From Thermomicrobiales bacterium (lineage in GTDB: Bacteria; Chloroflexota; Chloroflexia; Thermomicrobiales; UBA6265), in assembly GCA_030447415.1 (NCBI GenBank), contig JAUJOZ010000029.1:1-64000 (forward strand): a stretch of 64,000 nt of DNA, in the 5' to 3' direction. Numbering within the stretch: position 1 is the first letter of the stretch; each line of letters begins with the position of its first letter. Made by a program: the position numbers and the translations under genes. The notes under the pieces are model-generated. The model was not told where the DNA came from. It was given only the letters and a program-made list of their open reading frames with translations, and made no database searches. Positions 22,912 through 42,768 of the stretch are shown here, one piece after another.

Positions 22912-25900
22912 GTGAAAATGACACAATGGGCTCTGGTACTGCGCGTGGTCGGCGCGCTGGCGATGATCGCCAGCCTGCTGACCTTCGCCGTCGGCCAGAC
23001 GCTCGCAGCGCCCGGGGGCGTGGCGCCGTCGGCGACCGCGGCGCAGTTCCAGGACGACACGACGGCTGAGGGGGGCGACGGCGTCGGCGCCGTGCGCGGC
23101 GACGCCGACGGCGGCGACGGCGGCGAGGGCGGCGAGGGCGGCGCCGGCGACGACGACGGCGGCGGCGCTGGCGGCGAGGCCTGCGGCGGCGCCGCCGGCG
23201 GCGGCCAAGGCACCGGCGGCGACGCCGACGCCAGCGGCGGCGACGCGCAGGGCGACACCTTGGCGGCGACACCACCGGCGGCGACACGACCGGCGGCGAC
23301 GGCGGCTTCGGCGGCGACGCCAACGGCGGCGAGGGTATCGGCGGCGACGCCGCCACCGGCGACGCCGAGGGCGGTGACGTTGTCATCATCGTCGACGGCG
23401 CGGTCGACCAGGTGGCCGTCGATGACGTGGCCGTCGACGACGGTGTGGCCGTCGACGACGTGGCCGTTGACGCGGTCGACGCGGTTGACGCGGGCGGCGG
23501 CGGCGCGGTTCAGGAGGTCGACGCGGTCGACGTGGTCGACGTGGTCGACGACGAGATCGAGGACGATATCGCCGGTGGCGACGCCGAGAGCGGCGACGCC
23601 GAGGGCGGCGACGTGGACGGCGGCGACGCCGAGGGTGGCGACGCGGACGGCGGCGACGCCGACGGTGGCGACACCGAGGGCGGCGACACGACCGGCGCGA
23701 ACAACACCGGCGGCGACGGCGGCATCGCGGTCGGCGGCGACGGCGAGGGCGGCGACGCGGACGGCGGCGAGGGCGGTGACGCCAGCGGCGGCGACGGCGG
23801 TGACGCCAGCGGCGGCGACGGCGGCGAGGGCGGCGACAGCGGCGACGCGATGAGCGGCGACGCGGACGGCGGCGACGGCGGCGATGCCACCGCGACGAGC
23901 GGCGGCGCCGACACCGGCGACGGCGGCGACGGCGGCGACGGCGGTTGCGAGAAGGAGTGCGACGGCGACGGCGGCGACGGCGATGGTGACGGTGACGGGT
24001 CCGCCACGGCCGTTGGCGGCGACGGCGGCGACGCCACCAGCGGCGACGCCGACACCGGCGATGGCGGCGACGGCGGCGACGGCGGCGACGGCGGCGACGC
24101 CAGCGGCGGCGATGGCGGCGACGCCAGCGGCGGCGATGCCACGGCCGGCGACGGCACCGGTGGCGACGCCGACGCCAGCGGCGGTGACGCGCAGGGCGAC
24201 ACCGAGGGCGGCGACACCAACGGTGGTGACATCGACCGGCGGCGCCGGCGGCACCGGCGGCGACGCCGACGGCGGCGACGGCGGCGAGGGCGGCGACGCC
24301 GATACCGGCGATGCTGAGGGCGGCGATGTCGTCATCATCATCGACGAGGACGAGGACGAGGCGGTCGACGTGGTCGACGTGGTCGACGTGGTCGACGTGG
24401 TCGGCGTGGTCGACGTGGTCGACGTGGTCGACGTGGTCGACGTGGTCGACGTGGTCGACGTGGTCGGCGTGGGACGGCGACGTGGTCGGCGGGCTCCGGG
24501 AGGTCGACGCGGTCGACGTGGTCGACGTGGTCGACGTGGTCGACGACGAGATCGAGGACGATATCGCCGGTGGCGACGCCGAGAGCGGCGACGCCGAGGG
24601 CGGCGACGCGGACGGCGGCGACGCCGAGGGTGGCGACGCGGACGGCGGCGACGCCGAGGGTGGCGACACCACCGGTGGCGACACGACCGGCGCGATCAAC
24701 ACCGGCGGCGACGGCGGCATCGCGGTCGGCGGCGACGGCTTTGGCGGTGACGCGGACGGCGGCGACGGCGGTGACGCCAGCGGCGGCGACGGCGGTGACG
24801 CCAGCGGCGGCGACGGCGGCGAGGGCGGCGACAGCGGCGACGCGATGAGCGGCGACGCGACCGGCGGCGACGGCGGCGATGCCACCGCGACGAGCGGCGG
24901 CGACGGCGGCGCGACCGCGACCGGCGGCGAAGGCGGCGACGCCGACACCGGCGGCGAGGGCGACGACGCCGACACCGGCGACGCGAACCCGGACGGCAGC
25001 GGCGGCGAGGACGATACCGGCGGCGACGCCGACACCGGCGGCGACGAGGCGATGGCCGGCGTCTTCCAGTTCATCGACGAGGACGGCGACGGCGTCGATG
25101 ATCGCCCCGAGGCCGGCGACGGCGAAGTCCGCACAACCTCGACCGGTGACGGCGACGCCGACACCGGCGGCGAGGGTGAGGGCGACGACACTGGCGACGA
25201 TGGCGGCGACGCCGGCACCGGCGACGCCGACACCGGCGATGGCGGCATGGGTGGCGATGGCGGCGCGGGTGGCGACGCCAGCGGCGGCGATGGCGGCGAC
25301 GCCAGCGGCGGCGATGCCACGGCCGGCGACGGCACCGGTGGCGACGCTGACGCCGGCGGCGGTGACGCGCAGGGCGACACCGAGGGCGGCGACACCAACG
25401 GTGGTGACACGACCGGCGGCGCCGGCGGCACCGGCGGCGACGCCGACGGCGGCGACGGCGAGGGCGGCGACGCCGATACCGGCGATGCTGAGGGCGGCGA
25501 TGTCATCATCATCATCGACGAGGACGAGGCGGTCGACGTGGTCGACGTGGTCGACGTGGTCGACGTGGTCGACGTGGTCGACGTGGTTGACGTGGTCGAC
25601 GTGGTCGACGTGGTCGACGTGGTCGGACGTGGTGACGGCGCCGGCACGGTTCGGCCCGCAGGAGGTCGACGCGGTCGACGTGGTCGACGTGGTCGACGAC
25701 GAGATCGAGGACGATATCGCCGGTGGCGACGCCGAGAGCGGCGACGCCGACGGTGGCGACGCGGACGGCGGCGACGCCGATGGTGGCGACGCGGACGGTG
25801 GCGACGCCGATGGTGGCGACACCGAGGGCGGCGACACGACCGGCGCGATCAACACCGGCGGCGACGGCGGCGCTGCGGTCGGCGGCGACGGCGAGGGCGG

Positions 25901-31327: not shown

Positions 31328-32251
31328 GTGCCGCGTTACGTCCCGCTGATGAACTGGACCGAAGACAGCGAAGACAGCGAGGCGCGCGCCGTGCGTCGGG
31401 TGACCGCGTCGCTGTTGGTCTTTGCTGCCATTCTCGTCGTCGCCACGCTGCTCGTCGCCTCGCCGCGCGTCGGCTTGGCACTCGATTACCGGGCAACGGT
31501 GCGGATCGGGGGGGCTGTGGTCGATGCCGAGGTGGCGCACACCTCCTCGGAGCGGCAGCGCGGGCTGTCCTTCCGCGACGGCCTGGCGCCGGGCACCGGC
31601 ATGCTCTTCGTCTACAGCGGTGCCGATTACCGGACCTTCTGGATGAAAGACATGCGCTTCTGCATCGATATCGTTTGGATCGAGGGCGGCCAAGTGGTCG
31701 GAGCCGTGCAGAACGCGTGCCCCTCACCCGCGGGAACGCCAGACTCGCAGCTGCCGCGCTACACCTCGCCGGTTCCCGTGCGCTACGCGCTGGAGGTGCC
31801 AGCCGGCTGGCTGGCGCGCAACGGGCTCGGCCGCGGCGCCCCGGTCACCATCACCTGGACGGGGATCGCACTCCGCATTGTCAATAGCGGCCGTACCAGC
31901 AACTCGGTCACCTCGCTCTACGCCTACGACAACGACCTGGCCACCTCCTGGCGTACCAATAGCTCGACCCCACCGAGCTCCGCCTACGTCTGGTTCGACC
32001 TCGGCGCCACCAAGTCGATCGGCACCATCAAGTGGCTGTTTGCCCAGACGGGGTACGCCGACGCGCTCACGATCCAGGCCAGCAACGACGGGGTCACGTG
32101 GGCGACCCTCGCGACGCCGGGCGGTGCTGCCGCCGGCACCTGGCAGTCACTCAGTACCCGCGTCTCGGCGCGCTACGTCCTGTTCTCTTTCGGCAACCCG
32201 AATCGTGATCCACAGCTCGGTTACCTGAGCGAGGTCCGAATCCTCTCGTAA
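31328..32251 (+). CDS. DUF192 domain fused to an F5/8-type C (discoidin-like) domain, membrane-anchored
   Basis: A 307-residue protein from GTG 31328 with AGGAAGAGG upstream. A membrane helix (TASLLVFAAILVVATLLVAS) exports the rest. Residues 55-175 form a DUF192 domain with its typical ERQRGLSFRDGLAPGTGMLF, FWMKDMRFCIDIVWI and ALEVPAGWLARNGL. Residues 180-307 form a discoidin-like sandwich (YDNDLATSWRTNSS, VWFDLGATKSIGTIKW, RYVLFSFGN), a carbohydrate-binding type fold. The fusion suggests a surface role in carbohydrate or wall binding; DUF192 has no settled biochemical function. Confidence 0.8.
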   Translation: MPRYVPLMNWTEDSEDSEARAVRRVTASLLVFAAILVVATLLVASPRVGLALDYRATVRIGGAVVDAEVAHTSSERQRGLSFRDGLAPGTGMLFVYSGADYRTFWMKDMRFCIDIVWIEGGQVVGAVQNACPSPAGTPDSQLPRYTSPVPVRYALEVPAGWLARNGLGRGAPVTITWTGIALRIVNSGRTSNSVTSLYAYDNDLATSWRTNSSTPPSSAYVWFDLGATKSIGTIKWLFAQTGYADALTIQASNDGVTWATLATPGGAAAGTWQSLSTRVSARYVLFSFGNPNRDPQLGYLSEVRILS

Positions 32252-32722: not shown

Positions 32723-34144
32723 ATGGTTCGGGTCGGCGGGACGTGGATACTACGGGTCGTTGTTGGGCTGGTCGTCGCGGTCGCGGCGGTCGCGCTGCCC
32801 TCCCCAGCCGGCGCGGGCCACGCGTGGGGCAGCTACCACTGGGGACGCACGGCTAATCCGTTCACCGTCCAGCTCGGCGACAACGTAAGCAGCACCTGGG
32901 ATAGCTACCTCGGCACCGCCTCGTACGATTGGTCGAGGTCGACGGTCCTCGATGCGCCGGTTGGCGCGGGGCGCACCAGCAGTCTAAGCACGTGCGCGCC
33001 GACCTCGGGCCGCATCGAGGTCTGCAGCGCGGCGTACGGCCGCACCGGCTGGCTCGGCGTCGCTAACGTCTGGACCTGGAACGGACACGTCGTACAGGGC
33101 GCCGTCAAGCTGAACGACACCTATTTCAACACCAGCACGTACAACACGCCGGCGTGGCGGCGCCTCGTGATGTGCCAAGAGGTGGGCCACACCGTCGGCC
33201 TCGACCACACGGACGTCACCTCCAACAACGCGAACCAAGGCACGTGCATGGACTACACGAACGACCCGAACGGCGGCGCGGGGGGCGCCAGCAGCACCGA
33301 CCCGAGCAACGAGCACCCAAACCTGCACGACTACGAGCAGCTGGCGTCGATCTACCGTCAGCACGCGGACACCACGACCACCGCCGGCAGCACGTCCGCA
33401 GCGCAGACGGCCGGGCAGAGCGGGCAGGCGATCCACGACCCGGCCGGCCCTGAGCGGGGCGGCGTCTCCGCCTTCGTCACTGAGCTCGGCCGGGGCAACC
33501 GGGTGATCACCTTCGTCATCTGGGCCGACGCCAACCTGATGGCGGCAACGCACGCCAATCCCAATGCCCCGGTCGCCAACACCACGACCGACGAGGAGAG
33601 CTTCCCGGTCGACGGTGGCACGCACGACCACGAGGGGGAGGCGGCGCTCGATAGCGACGCCGACAACCTTGACGACGCGGCCGAGGCGACGCACGGCACG
33701 GATTCGGCCAACCCCGACACCGATGCCGATGGCCTAGCCGACGGCGACGAGGTGCACACCTACGGCACGACCCCGCTGGTCTGGGACACGGACGGGGACG
33801 GGGTGAGTGATGGCAACGAGATCTTCGGCGTCGGCACCAACCCGCTGGTCGCCGATGGGGCCACCCTCAACGGCGGGACGAGCGGCGCGGTGGCCGCGCC
33901 CGAGGCGGGCGCGGGCTTCGCGGTCGGGGCCACCGTCGTCACCACCGACGCGGTCAACCTGCGGGCGACCGCGTCCCGGCAGGGGGAGATCGTCACGGAA
34001 TTGGCGGCAGGCACCGTCCTGACGGTGACCGGGGCAGCCGTGCAGGCGCAGGGGCTAACCTGGTACCCCGTCGTGGTCGTTGACCCGGCGACCGGGCAGT
34101 CCCTGGCCGGCTACGTCACCGCCGACTTTCTGGACGTGGCGTAG
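32723..34144 (+). CDS. Secreted matrixin-like protein with thrombospondin-type-3 repeats and SH3 tail
   Basis: A 473-residue exported protein with signal peptide RVVVGLVVAVAAVALPSP. The metalloprotease-like domain has MCQEVGHTVGLDHTD near residue 150, which fits the matrixin HExxHxxGxxH box except that the first His is Gln. Asp/Asn-rich repeats follow (DSDADNLDD, DTDADGLADGDE, DTDGDGVSDGNE), the calcium-binding thrombospondin type 3 pattern, and then an SH3-like domain (VNLRATASRQGEIVTEL, WYPVVVVDP). Loss of one zinc ligand questions proteolysis. A broken paralogue at 40489-39449 shows the same CQEVGH. Confidence 0.75.
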   Translation: MVRVGGTWILRVVVGLVVAVAAVALPSPAGAGHAWGSYHWGRTANPFTVQLGDNVSSTWDSYLGTASYDWSRSTVLDAPVGAGRTSSLSTCAPTSGRIEVCSAAYGRTGWLGVANVWTWNGHVVQGAVKLNDTYFNTSTYNTPAWRRLVMCQEVGHTVGLDHTDVTSNNANQGTCMDYTNDPNGGAGGASSTDPSNEHPNLHDYEQLASIYRQHADTTTTAGSTSAAQTAGQSGQAIHDPAGPERGGVSAFVTELGRGNRVITFVIWADANLMAATHANPNAPVANTTTDEESFPVDGGTHDHEGEAALDSDADNLDDAAEATHGTDSANPDTDADGLADGDEVHTYGTTPLVWDTDGDGVSDGNEIFGVGTNPLVADGATLNGGTSGAVAAPEAGAGFAVGATVVTTDAVNLRATASRQGEIVTELAAGTVLTVTGAAVQAQGLTWYPVVVVDPATGQSLAGYVTADFLDVA

Positions 34145-35270: not shown

Positions 35271-36322
35271 ATGGCCACCACCGACGGCGAGCTAACCCAC
35301 GAGCCAAACGGGCACGAGCTCGACGAGGGGGCTGTTCGGTTTGAGGCCTCGCCATCACGGTGCTGCGGGTGTGCCAGCAGCTCGCGGCCGAGGGCCTGGA
35401 CGCGACGCTGGAGCGCAAGTACCGTGACCGCGTCTACGAGCGCGCATTGGACGGCGAGCAGGAGGCCCGCCTAAGCCCCCTCGCCTGCAGTACGCCCCCG
35501 GACGGCCAGGCTCGCTAGACGCTTCGCCTGCTCGCCGACGAGCTCGTCCGCCTGGAGGTGGCGGAGACGATCTCCCACGAGACTGTCCGCCCGGCACTCA
35601 AAAATGCGCTCAAACCCTGGTTGAAGGAGCAGTGGTGCCTCGCCCCCACCGCCGACCCGATCTTGGTCTGGCGCATGGAGGACGTGCTCGCCGTCTACCA
35701 GCGGCCGCCCGATCCCATCGGGCTCATCGTCTGCCTGGACGAGGCGAGCCGCCAGCTCCTCGCCGACACGCGTCCCCGCCTGCTCCTCGCGGCCGGCCAG
35801 CCCGCCCGCCACGACCCCGAGGACGTGCGCGGCGGAATGGCCAACGTTTTCCTGGTGACCGAGCCGCTGTGCGGCTAGCGCACCGTCTTAGTCAGTGAGC
35901 AGCGGACCCGGCTGGGCTTCGCCGCCTGGGTCAAGGAGTTCGTCGATGTCCATTACGCCGCCGAGCAGATCGTGCTGGTGCTGGACCAGCTCAACACCCA
36001 TTCCCCGGCCTCCCTCTCCGCTGGCTTCCCGCCCGCCGAGGCGCGGCGCCTGGTGGAGAAGCTGGAGGTCCACCACACGCCCAAACCGGCAGCTGGCGCA
36101 CCAATGGCGGAGCTTGAGTTGAGCGTCCCGGAGCGGCAGTGCCTGGGCCGGCGGTTCGGCGACCGCGGGACGCTGGAGCGGGCGGGCGCCGCCTGGGCCG
36201 GGCGCCGCCTGGGCCGGGCGCCGCAACGCGGGCGCCTCGACCATCCGCTGGCAATTCACCACCGCCGACGCCCGCATCAAGCTCCGCTGCCTCTACCCGG
36301 CGAATCAGCCCCGACACTCGAC
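35271..36322 (+). pseudogene. IS630-family transposase copy 1, inactivated by nonsense codons
   Basis: From ATG 35271 (MATTDGELTHEPNGHELDEG), after one shift near 35350, the protein reads VCQQLAAEGLDATLERKYRD, LADELVRLEVAETISHETVR, LKPWLKEQWCLAPTADPILV, VCLDEASRQLLADTRPRL and IVLVLDQLNTHSPASL, the order of an IS630 DDE transposase. Two Trp codons are TAG: in QAR-stop-TLRLL at 35517 and LCG-stop-RTV at 35877, both TGG to TAG. Further damage follows near 36080 and 36200, ending TIRWQFTTADARIKLRCLYP. It ends where the next IS630 begins. Confidence 0.8.
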
Positions 36323-36324
36323 TA

Positions 36325-37318
36325 GAGCGGCGTTCATAACAGTTGGCCGGGGAGCAGATAGCCGGCGGCGCGGTAGAAGCCGCGGGCGTCGGCTGGGGTG
36401 AGTGCGGCGAGGGCTGGCCCGGCGGCGTCGACGAGCGCCTCGAAGGTGCACGCCTCCGCTCGACGCAGCTGCTGCTTGAGCTTGGCGAAGGCGGGCTCGA
36501 TCGGGTTGAAGTCGGGCGAGTACCGGGAGGAAGCGCAGCCGGCACCCCGCCGCCTCGACCACCCGCCGGGCACGGGCGCTCTTGTGCACGTTGAGGTTGT
36601 CCAGCAGCACCGTCTGCCCCGGGCGTAGCGCCGGTACCAGCTCCTGCGCCACCCACGCCTCGAAGGCGGGGCAGTCCAGCGCCCCCGGCAGCATCACCGG
36701 GGCAGCCACCCCGTCGGGCGTCAGGGCGGTGACGAGCGCCACCTGCTTGCGCCGCCCCCGCGGCACCCGGCCCATGGCCGCCCCCCGCGCGGGGCGCGGG
36801 CTCGCAGCGGGGTCAGCGTCGTCGGGGTGTCGGTCTCGTCCAGGAAGACCAAGTCGGCCGGGGCGAGCGCGGCCGCCCCGGCGCGGAACGCCGCCCGCTC
36901 GGCCTCGTCGCGCTCCCGGGCAATCAGCGTCTGTTTTTGAGTGGCAGCCCCAACCCGGGCCAGCAGCCGTGACATCGTCGCCTCGCTCACCCGCGCGCCC
37001 TGCTCCGCCGCCCAGCGGGCGCAGTGCTCGGCCAGCGTCGCGTCGGGGTGCGCGGCCACCTGGGCACGGAGAGCTGACCAGCGCTCCGGCGGCAGGAGCG
37101 GGGCGCGGCCCGGACGGGGTCGCGGGGCCGGGCTGCCCTGCTCCCGGTGCAGGCGGCGCCACCGCGACAGGGACCGGGGGCTGATGCCGAAGCAGCGGGC
37201 GATCTCGGCGCGCACGAGCCCGGCGTCCTCGGCTTGCAGCAACCGCTCACGGAGATCGACGGGGTACGGCTTCACGCCCCAAGTGTCCCCCCGAAGACAA
37301 CTCCATCGCAAGCCGCTC
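36325..37318 (-). mobile_element. IS630-family element copy 2 (994 bp) with TA target duplication
   Basis: The ends are inverted: GAGCGGC at 36325 and GCCGCTC ending 37318, each flanked by TA (36323-36324 and 37319-37320), the IS630 target dinucleotide. The element holds one transposase gene on the minus strand. It inserted right after the remains of IS630 copy 1. Confidence 0.85.
36334..37275 (-). pseudogene. Transposase of IS630 copy 2, two frameshifts
   Basis: GTG 37275 starts VKPYPVDLRERLLQAEDAGL, a helix-turn-helix domain with ISPRSLSRWRRLHREQG. The DDE domain begins ADLVFLDETDTPTTLTPLR, then after a shift near 36775 reads RRKQVALVTALTPDGVAAP and VLLDNLNVHKSARARRVVEA, and after another shift near 36535 RYSPDFNPIEPAFAKLKQQL, ending RAAGYLLPGQLL. 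All three catalytic regions are present. IS630 elements sometimes use programmed frameshifting, so one of the two shifts could be functional. Confidence 0.8.
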
Positions 37319-37581: not shown

Positions 37582-37947
37582 CTACTCGGATCGAAACATG
37601 AATCGGCCGAAGAACGAGCGGTTCCGCGCGACGATCCAATAGCCCACCTCGATGAGCCAGATGAATGGCCGCCGCTGGCCCAGGCGAGCCAGGACCGGAT
37701 GCCAGCCGATCTCCTCCAAGACAAACAGCACTGCGCGCCCAGCGGAGAGCCGGGTTCCATCATGCGTGATGACCTGGATGGCCCGTCGCGCTCGCTCCTG
37801 GAGTTCAGGCGTCATCGGCGGGCTCGGACACTCCTGGTAGGGGACCGTCCGGAACTTCTCTCGCTGGTCGAATCGCCTGACCCAGGCGATAATGTTTCTT
37901 CAGAAGCTTCAGCCGCCATCCCAGATGAGCCAATGTTGGTCCGGCAT
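37582..37947 (-). CDS. DCC-family (DUF393) thiol-disulfide oxidoreductase, probable UxxU selenoprotein
   Basis: ATG 37947 follows AGGAG by 10 nt. The frame reads MPDQHWLIWDGG, TGA, Ser-Phe, TGA, RNIIAWVRRFDQREKFR, then TVPYQECPSPPMTPELQERA, RRAIQVITHDGTRLSAGRAV, LFVLEEIGWHPVLARLGQRR and IEVGYWIVARNRSFFGRF to a TGA stop, 121 residues. DCC proteins start with a DG-x-C-x-F-C-R motif and continue with a YQE and an ARxRxxF tail, all matched; the two TGA codons (37911-37909, 37902-37900) fall exactly on the two active-site cysteines. The rest of the frame is undamaged. I infer selenocysteine at both sites. A pseudogene is the alternative but would need two independent TGC/TGT to TGA changes at just these codons. 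Confidence 0.72.
37872..37890 (-). promoter_or_regulatory. Candidate bacterial SECIS hairpin
   Basis: On the minus strand ATCGCCT (37890-37884) pairs perfectly with AGGCGAT (37878-37872) around the loop GGGTC. The loop starts 17 nt after the second TGA and 26 nt after the first, within the distance known for bacterial SECIS elements, and contains the GG/GGU that SelB recognises in the E. coli fdhF hairpin. Folding and SelB binding are untested. Confidence 0.6.
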
Positions 37948-38001
37948 GCGCGGTCGTCTCCTTCGGGGAGCGTTGGACGAGAAACCGGAAAGTGGACCCA
38001 G

Positions 38002-39448: not shown

Positions 39449-40489
39449 CTACGCCGGGGCGAGGAGGTCAGCGGCGACGTAGCCGGCGCGCCCGTCGGCG
39501 GTCGACACCGGATACCACGCCGGCGCCAACCCGCCCCCGGGCCACGGCCGGGCCGGTGACCGTCAGGGGCGTGCCGGCGGCGAGGACTGCCAGGACCCGC
39601 CCGCTCATGGACGGGGCATCACGCAAGTTGACGCCGTCGGCCGCGACGGTCATGGCGGCCCCGGTCGCGAAGACCGGTGCGGATGCGCGCGCCGGTGAGC
39701 CGCCATCGACCGGTCCGTGGCCAGGGTTGCCCGGCTCGGCCCAGAGCACGGAGGTGACCCGGAGACGGCCGCGGCCGAGGTCCTCGACGATGACCGAGGA
39801 GCCACCCTGCTCGGGTCCAACCGGGTCGGGGATACTGACTCCGCCGCGGTGAACGTCGCCACCGCCGCGGTGCTAACCGTGGTTGTGCCGTCGCGGTGCG
39901 AGTGGATCGCGGCCAGCTGCTCGTAGTCGTGGTAGTTCGGGGCAACGTAGCTGGCGTAGGACAGCGTGCTGGCGCTGTCGTTCATGCAGGTCGTGCCGCC
40001 CGTGTGCCAGAGCCCGAGGGCGTGCCCAACCTCCTGGCAGAGGACGTGCCGCCGGGCGTACGCGTTGTTGTAGCGCGAGGTGGCGAAGTAGGTGTCGTTC
40101 AGCTTGACGGTGCCCTGAGTGAAGTGGCCACCCGAGAACCAGGCCGTCGCCACGCCGAGCCAGCCGTTGAAGCCTTAGCTCCGGTTGCACACTTCAACGC
40201 GGCCGGCCTGCGCCGAGCAGGAGCTGCCGCCCTGCCCCGCGACGACCGCCGTGTCAAGGACGGACGAGGCCGACCAGTCCGCCGACACCGACCCGAGGAG
40301 GCTCCGCCAGGTGGAGGTGGTCAGGTTGTTGCCGAGCGGGAGGACGAACGGGTTGCCGGTGCGCGCCCAGCGCCAGCCGTTCCACGAGTGGCCGGCTTCG
40401 GCTCGGGCCGGTAGCGCCGCTACGCAGAGCGCGGCGACCAGGCAAATGATGAGAACCCGCAGAGCCACGGCCTTACCCTGATGCTTCAT
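39449..40489 (-). pseudogene. Second matrixin-like protein, broken
   Basis: ATG 40489 starts MKHQGKAVALRVLIICLVAA, a signal peptide, then HSWNGWRWARTGNPFVLPLG as in the copy at 32723. An in-frame TAA at 40177-40175 interrupts EVCNRS and GFNGWLGVATAW. The frame then continues through VLCQEVGHALGLWHTGG (again Gln for the first zinc His) and NYHDYEQLAAIHSHRDG. Further shifts follow near 39830 and 39530, leading to an SH3 tail (VNLRDAPSMSGRVLAVL, AWYPVSTADGRAGYVAAD) and a TAG at 39451-39449. The thrombospondin repeats are missing. Confidence 0.75.
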
Positions 40490-41525
40490 GCGCTCCCTCC
40501 CTTCGCCCCCCGGTTACGGAGGTGTAATGGCTCGGTCGTCGATGCCATGGCGGCCGGTGCGCCCGCGCGGCCGCCGGCCGCCCCCCGGTTGCGGTTTCCT
40601 AGGATACCGGTGTCGAGACTAACACGTGACCCAGCCTATTACACGCACCCGCTCGGTCGTCAAGCTCGTCCGAACGGCCGCACGGCGGCTGTCCCATCGT
40701 GCGGCATGAAACCGGCGGGGCGTGGCCGACGAAGACCCGAGCCAATTGCAAGCCGCCGGGGCGCCGCACACCCCCCACCCCTTCCCTCCGCGAACCCGGC
40801 CCCGCGCGGCTGGGCTCGCGGTTTTACCTCGCCCATCACGGAACCGTCTGCATGGCCGGCGCGTTCCAGATGTGGTCGGGGCTTGGGCGTAGGGGTCGCC
40901 GCCCTGCCGACGACCCCCGAGCCGAACGGCAGCGCCCGCCTCACCCGCCGCTCCGCCCGCTCAGACGGCGCGAGAGGCGCCGCCACGCCAGCGGCCCTAG
41001 AGGAAGGCCCCGCCGGCTCCGGCCCGCTCGCAGTCGGCGGTTGCGCTGCGGGCGTATTCCGGTCGACATCGTAGGCGGCGAGGGCCTGCAGCCGCAATGC
41101 CGCGAGTCTCTTCACCGGGTTGCGTCCCGCTCCGCCGGCAGGAGGTCGACGACCTGGTCCACGAGCGCACGGTTGGTGGCGTCGCGCGCGTCCACCGTCG
41201 AAACCTCGGCGGCGAGGTCATTGCGCTCCCGTGCAGCGGCCCGTTCTTTCGCGACAACACCTTGATCCGGATCCGGGTCACCAGCCGTGCCAGATACGCG
41301 TCCCGGATCCCCTCGAGCCGGGCGGGGGCGGTCGACGACACTGACGCGCGCATGCCTATCATCGGCCCGGTCGCGCCGCCTCGCGTCGCGTCCGTCGTGT
41401 CTTGTCCTGTGGCGACCGTCGTGTCGCCACCGTCGTGACGCGCCCGGCCGAGTCGACGCCGGTGAGGACAGCTGCCAGTGGCCGGCGACCTTTCACCGGG
41501 TGATCTGGCCATGTTCGATGCGCTA
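40490..41525. other. Gene-free stretch upstream of IS630 copy 3
   Basis: Open frames occur on both strands but none resembles a known protein. It should contain the ancestral promoter of the broken matrixin-like gene. Confidence 0.35.
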
Positions 41526-42639
41526 AGCAGCCTCAGAGAAGTCTTGGACCGGTGCGTGCGGCGGCGGGGGCGGAGGTGCTGCGATGGCCCCACCCTCGCG
41601 CCGCGCGCCGACGATCTCCGGGGCCTGACCCGGACCGACCCCGACCCCGCGGGTGCGTCGGCGGGCGCACGCCCTGCTGCTGGTCGCCGAGGGGCGTGGA
41701 CCGTGGCCGCGGTCGCGCGCCTGTTCGAGACGGGGCCGAACCGCATCCGCGCTTGGCGGGCCCGGTTTCTGGCGGGCGGCCGCCGGGGCCTCGCCGACGA
41801 GCCGCGCTCGGTCGCCCGCCCAAGCTGAACGCCGCGGCGCTGGCGTTCCTCGCGGAGGCGCTGGAGGCGAGCCCCCAGGCGTACGGGCTGCCGGTCACGG
41901 TCTGGAGCATCCGCGACCTGCGCGAGGTGCTGGCGGCACGCCTGGGTGTCCGTCTGCACCGCGACCGTGCACCGAGCGGTGCAGCGCTTGGGCTACCGGT
42001 ACCGCCGCCCCCGCCACGACCTGCGGCACCGCCAGGACCAGGAGGCGGTCGCGGCGGCCGAGGAGGTCCTGGCGTGGCGGCGAAAAAAGCGTTGGCGCCC
42101 CTGGCGAACTCCGCCTCGTTTACTTGGACGAGTGCGAGGTCCACCGTCACCCCCGCCTGGCGAAGGTGTGGCAGCGGGGGGTGCCCGCTGGTGCCGGCCG
42201 CCGAGGAGGACGGCAAGTTCGCCGTCTTCCGGGGCGCTCGACTACGCCACCGGCCGGCTCGTCTGCAGACCGCGGAGCACAAGGACGGCGCCGCCTTCGT
42301 CGCCTTCCTCGACCACCCTGGCCGCGGCGTTCCCCGACGGGGCCGCTGGTCGTGGTCCTGGACAACGTCGGCTACCACAAGGGGCGGCGCGCCAAGGACT
42401 GGTGGATGGCCCAGCAGGACCGGGTCCGCCCGCTGTGGCTGCCCGCCTACGCGCCTGAGCTGAACCTGATCGAGCGCGTCTGGCGTCACCTCAAGGACAA
42501 GCTGAGCTGCCATCGCTGGTGGGCCGACCTGCTGGCGCGGGAGGTGGCCGCCGCCGCCCTCCTCTCGCGGACCGAGGCGCGCTTTCACCAGCCAGACCCG
42601 GGCGGCATCGCCCTGGTCCAGAACTTCTGTCAGGCTGCT
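41526..42639 (+). mobile_element. IS630-family element copy 3 (1114 bp), transposase with many frameshifts
   Basis: The ends are inverted repeats of about 22 bp (AGCAGCCTCAGAGAAGT at the left; AGCAGCCTGACAGAAGT read inward from the right), flanked by TA at 41524-41525 and 42640-42641. The transposase pieces on the plus strand are TVAAVARLFETGPNRIRAWR, LNAAALAFLAEALEASPQAY, TATVHRAVQRLGYRYRRPR, LRLVYLDECEVHRHPRLAKV, LVVVLDNVGYHKGRRAKDWW and LPAYAPELNLIERVWRHLKD, ending LVQNFCQAA at the right tip. At least five frame changes occur, so it is dead as read. Confidence 0.8.
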
Positions 42640-42768
42640 TAGGTCGTGTCCGCAAAGTCTGGAGGCGCTTCGCAGATTCCTGGGTATGCCGCGCTGCTAT
42701 CGCCGAAGTCGGCTGATAGACTCTCCATCTCAGATAGGGGCGACCAGCATTGGGAGCGGTGGGGTCAT

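Follow-up and report, generated by a model that had tools for sequence, protein, structure and literature searches.

A DCC-family gene with UGA at both active-site cysteine codons, a probable double-selenocysteine protein of Chloroflexota

Within the 64,000-nucleotide stretch of DNA that was analysed (the window), a short gene of the DCC family (DUF393) carries TGA at both codons of its redox-active cysteines, which raised the question of whether these codons are read as selenocysteine (Sec), are mutations in a decaying gene, or are ordinary codons of a changed genetic code. The initial annotation had described a 121-residue DCC frame with a ribosome-binding site and had favoured Sec at both positions. 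The coordinates of this frame proved exact (Table 1), and the strand, which had not been given, was the minus strand.

The gene and the predicted protein

On the minus strand the gene was read from an ATG at 37947-37945 to a TAG with its terminus at 37582, as MPDQHWLIWDGG-TGA-SF-TGA-RNIIAWVRRFD...FMFRSE-TAG. As previously claimed, the two TGAs were the sole interruption, no further in-frame stop being found in the 121 codons, and both fell on the redox-cysteine codons (DGG-U-SF-U-RN). The plus strand across 37582-37947 also contained an open frame, which was meaningless.

Table 1. Positions of the gene, its signals and the Sec-related genes of the source genome
Feature	Position	Strand	Remarks
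DCC (DUF393, PF04134) gene, probable selenoprotein	37582-37947	-	121 codons + TAG; product MPDQHWLIWDGGUSFURN...FMFRSE
AAGGAG ribosome-binding site	37958-37963	-	10 nt upstream of ATG; read from sequence
First in-frame TGA (putative Sec13)	37909-37911	-	first cysteine of DGxCxxC motif
Second in-frame TGA (putative Sec16)	37900-37902	-	second cysteine of DGxCxxC motif
Putative bacterial SECIS hairpin	37872-37890	-	AUCGCCUG-GGU-CAGGCGAU, 8 bp, -11.4 kcal/mol
tRNA-Sec, source genome	L007, 1501-1597		
selD with Sec codon (GCAG-U-ASK), source genome	L159, from about 1501		

With TGA translated as Cys, the only Pfam match of the protein was PF04134 (DCC1-like; 47.6 bits, E 4.6e-12, residues 8-112), above the curated cut-off of 27.8 bits, and none of the NCBIfam models matched above cut-off. 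The D-x-x-C-x-x-C motif was kept in spacing and flanks, with TGA in place of both cysteines, as in a Sec variant of the motif. The AlphaFold2 model built with 55 natural sequences (pLDDT 83.5) displayed a beta-alpha-beta unit, then a beta-beta-alpha unit and a C-terminal helical part, in which U13 directly preceded the helix of residues 14-26. Foldseek against the PDB returned weak matches (best E 0.0099, TM 0.41/0.53), nearly all of them thioredoxin-fold proteins (mycoredoxin, PDI, glutaredoxin, thioredoxin), and a sequence search of the PDB gave no meaningful relative. A thioredoxin-like fold is predicted from this model. No signal peptide was evident, so a cytoplasmic location is assumed, and the protein would be a thiol or peroxide oxidoreductase working through a diselenide.

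No conserved partner was found among the gene neighbours of 20 DCC loci. An HTTM-domain (PF05090) gene adjoined a UxxU DCC gene in two genomes only (L143, 5824-7515, minus strand; L142, 5861-6976, plus strand), the match in L142 being under the Pfam cut-off. In the window, two overlapping frames at 36305-37311 (-), directly downstream of the DCC gene, encoded the HTH (PF13384/HTH_Tnp_1) and DDE_3 (PF13358) halves of a transposase and resembled IS630-type elements with a frameshift, and a second DDE_3 (PF13358) transposase, also in overlapping frames, was located at 41478-42642 (+). A frameshifted stretch at 39650-40489 (-) with a weak Matrixin match was related to the intact gene at 32723-34144 (+), which is metallopeptidase-like with a TSP3 repeat and an SH3 domain, and is probably a broken duplicate of it. 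Additionally, a DUF192 (PF02643) domain fused to a C-terminal F5/8 type C domain was encoded at 31328-32251 (+), and ARAGORN reported a tRNA-Arg (gcg) at 22946-23043 (-) with 98 nt, unusually long for tRNA-Arg.

Selenocysteine machinery and exchange of Sec and Cys among homologues

The analysis drew on MAG data, and the source genome is a draft of 5.2 Mb in 125 contigs (86% complete, 6% contaminated). The initial annotation had made the sel genes a check of its proposal, and all of them were present: selA (491 bits), selB (324 bits), selD (359 bits) and, for selC, a tRNA-Sec (64.7 bits) with the anticodon TCA (UCA) according to ARAGORN. The selD gene contained one TGA of its own at the usual Sec position (GCAG-U-ASK), therefore at least one textbook selenoprotein is encoded in this genome; a hairpin, CGCAGGUGCUGCG, was observed downstream of its UGA. 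A profile search of the same genome revealed a second PF04134 gene on contig C101, likewise with two TGAs, reading VTDRPHWLIYDGD-U-LL-U-RNTVAWVRRHD... (motif DGDULLURN). It was 63% identical to the window gene and terminated with TGA.

Homologues were searched in 158 genomes of the class, 400 of the phylum and 110 of the class of genome G229, and one scan of GTDB contigs added a single UxxU gene from Chloroflexi bacterium J111 (MAG). Among 104 distinct Chloroflexota DCC sites, the motif pair was UxxU in 26, UxxC in 5, CxxU in 6 and CxxC in 67. TGA at one or both redox codons was thus present in 37 distinct genes, namely the window gene, the second copy and 35 further Chloroflexota genes; this recurrence, together with the alignment to the cysteines of homologues, bore out the assignment of the TGAs to both active-site cysteines. 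Besides J111, UxxU occurred in at least eight family-level groups (f1, f8, f28, f31, f39, f52, f63, f89), and one genome (G501) contained one UxxU and one CxxC copy. The CxxU genes formed a subclade of one genus-level group (g208: L098, L100, L103, L110, L179, L188), with Cys at the first site, Sec at the second and the apical loop GGUC. In L110 (G462 C133, 22305-22987), two DCC-like stretches were observed in tandem, one of them broken by unread bases (N). A tblastn search against PLSDB plasmids gave no match.

A tree built after masking both motif columns required no fewer than 13 changes of the motif (first site 9, second site 11); as many of its forks are weakly supported, these counts are estimates. 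Since the tree demands this many changes, Sec and Cys appear from the sequences to have been exchanged repeatedly at both redox positions. No further in-frame stop was found inside the DCC domain of 28 Sec-type genes (3,540 codons); the one extra TGA flagged among them stood ahead of the domain, at the first codon displayed. Random stops or other damage in relatives had been named as evidence against a selenoprotein, and the exchange was instead confined to the two redox positions.

The presence of selA was also considered as a discriminator of Sec-type genomes and was discarded, as most of the sampled Chloroflexota carry it (25 of 27 genomes of the Sec type, 42 of 50 with Cys forms only). Two Sec-type genomes, G447 and G243, had no selA match, yet both still had a Sec-type selD, so genome incompleteness is the likely cause. 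The tRNA-Sec scores were borderline or under the cut-off in some draft relatives.

A putative SECIS hairpin within reach of both UGAs

A 19-nt hairpin was found just 3' of the two UGAs, with an apical GGU loop whose start was 26 nt from the first UGA and 17 nt from the second. It fitted the published bSECIS model, in which the spacing from UGA to loop is 16-37 nt (PMC13188914), and both UGAs were within this range. The constraints of the model were satisfied in all 37 Sec-type genes versus 37 of 67 Cys homologues, which were scored from the Cys codon, and in 34 of the 37 Sec-type genes the best hairpin was in range of both codons. Since W-V is frequent in these proteins and the G+C content of the DNA is high, the hairpin strength of each gene was measured against synonymous-codon shuffles with matched G+C at the third codon position. 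The stem register shifted by up to four positions between clades, for which reason a single consensus structure was rejected in favour of the shuffles. The mean z was -2.20 for UxxU, -1.34 for UxxC, -1.27 for CxxU and -0.04 for CxxC genes; thus the hairpin exceeded the shuffles in Sec-type genes only, and just mildly in CxxU genes. The Mann-Whitney P was 2.6e-12, a value that overstates the significance owing to kinship among the sequences.

In the six nearest genes, compensatory changes were detected in 2 of the 8 hairpin pairs, a modest covariation whose score was reached by 17 of 500 shuffles, and pairing was 91.7% in register versus at most 43.8% when the 3' arm was slid. Two Cys-type genes, L038 (z -2.83) and L121 (z -2.12), retained a strong hairpin at the SECIS place; these are possibly relics of a Sec ancestor after a recent Sec-to-Cys conversion. 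The distance between the single UGA and the loop was 27 nt in typical UxxC genes and 17 nt in CxxU genes, and the hairpins of both were at the same place, which indicated that one hairpin position is compatible with either codon.

This shared position bears on an alternative in which one UGA alone is efficiently read as Sec and the other is read poorly or as Cys, giving UxxC, CxxU or a mostly truncated product. The existence of UxxC and CxxU forms implies that one Sec suffices in some lineages, and tandem UGAs should lower the protein yield. Nevertheless, UxxU accounted for 26 of the 37 Sec-type genes, more than any other form, and recurred in several families, so both codons are apparently maintained by selection, and the UGAs, 9 nt apart, both lie within range of one hairpin. 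We consider a single functional Sec codon unlikely. Decay of a Cys-type DCC gene, with the TGAs as mutations, is less probable again. It would agree with the IS-type transposase immediately downstream and with the commonness of Cys-type homologues, but not with the recurrence of TGA at exactly these two codons across 37 distinct genes, a DCC domain without other stops, or the conserved hairpin. The dN/dS of the window gene against its two nearest homologues was about 0.18 and 0.24 (NG86), which points to purifying selection. Genome-wide reassignment of UGA (e.g. to Cys or Trp), for which nothing speaks beyond the in-frame TGAs themselves, is hardly credible, because, in two stretches of the source genome, TGA is the stop codon of 8 of 18 long ORFs; moreover, several Sec-type DCC genes themselves end in TGA and the UCA tRNA found is tRNA-Sec. 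Sequencing error was rejected as well.

Proposed function and relation to known selenoproteins

Our work supports with high confidence the reading of the window gene as a functional, small, cytoplasmic DCC oxidoreductase of the thioredoxin fold, in which Sec, decoded through SelB and the hairpin, replaces both active-site cysteines (UxxU). The machinery, the motif recurrence, the hairpins and the use of TGA as an ordinary stop make decay, sequencing error and recoding of the whole genome unlikely. On the sequence evidence the gene very probably encodes a genuine selenoprotein that has Sec in both places, as first proposed; the sel machinery, the Sec/Cys exchange at the redox site only and the SECIS-like hairpin all support this. 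How the UGAs are decoded, how the diselenide works and what it acts on are inferred as follows. SelB with Sec-tRNA would be recruited by the single hairpin just 3' of the UGAs, and this one hairpin would allow both UGAs to be decoded as Sec. The product would then probably cycle between a diselenol and an Se-Se bond, with the cycling probably coupled to the reduction of disulfides or peroxides. It also seems likely, with somewhat less assurance than for the window gene, that these genes constitute an undescribed, phylum-wide selenoprotein family in which selenium at the DCC site most often takes the form of the diselenide UxxU, one short SECIS serves two UGAs 9 nt apart, and repeated independent exchange of Sec and Cys has produced all four variants.

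Such a family would be an addition to the prokaryotic selenoproteome. Gene callers shorten or overlook its members because the first UGA falls within about the first 20 codons. UxxU, UxxC, CxxU and CxxC provide a natural series of one small redox protein, through which the old question of the advantage of Sec, and especially of a diselenide, over Cys can be tested directly. The locus also illustrates how a single bacterial SECIS may be placed to serve two UGAs. A review of May 2026 claims the most complete inventory of prokaryotic selenoproteins, with 119 families, and PF04134/DCC/DUF393 is absent from it. According to the initial annotation, a DCC protein with a UxxU site is not known to have been described, and likewise no DCC selenoprotein was found in the open-licence full texts searched, which leaves room for a description elsewhere or a silent RefSeq annotation.

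Several known systems share parts of this design. With the DCC family the window protein shares a whole-length match, the invariant DG-x-C-x-x-C positions and a predicted thioredoxin-like fold in which helix 1 begins at the motif, but the redox site there has cysteines, whereas the window gene has TGA, presumably Sec, at both; plant DCC1 is a mitochondrial Cys protein and acts as a reductant of carbonic anhydrase 2 in complex I (PMC7598583). Thioredoxin and glutaredoxin selenoproteins of the UxxC type also place their redox motif at a helix start within a thioredoxin-like fold, but they contain one Sec and belong to another sequence family, whereas the window protein would contain two. A UxxU redox motif with two Sec is known from selenoprotein L (SelL) and from Prx-like proteins. 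For SelL a diselenide bond is reported in a paper's title (Shchedrina et al., 2007, as cited in PMC2398784), and Prx-like UxxU sequences exist in prokaryotes according to the literature; these proteins have the AhpC/TSA domain PF00578, which was not matched by the window protein, only PF04134 being found. Among prokaryotic families, NF041115 (metal-binding/mercuric-reductase-like) and FmdB likewise contain two Sec as UxxU (PMC13188914, Table 1), but their domains are unrelated and the window protein matched neither in NCBIfam. The double-Sec DCC protein therefore represents an apparently undescribed, new family for the known UxxU motif.
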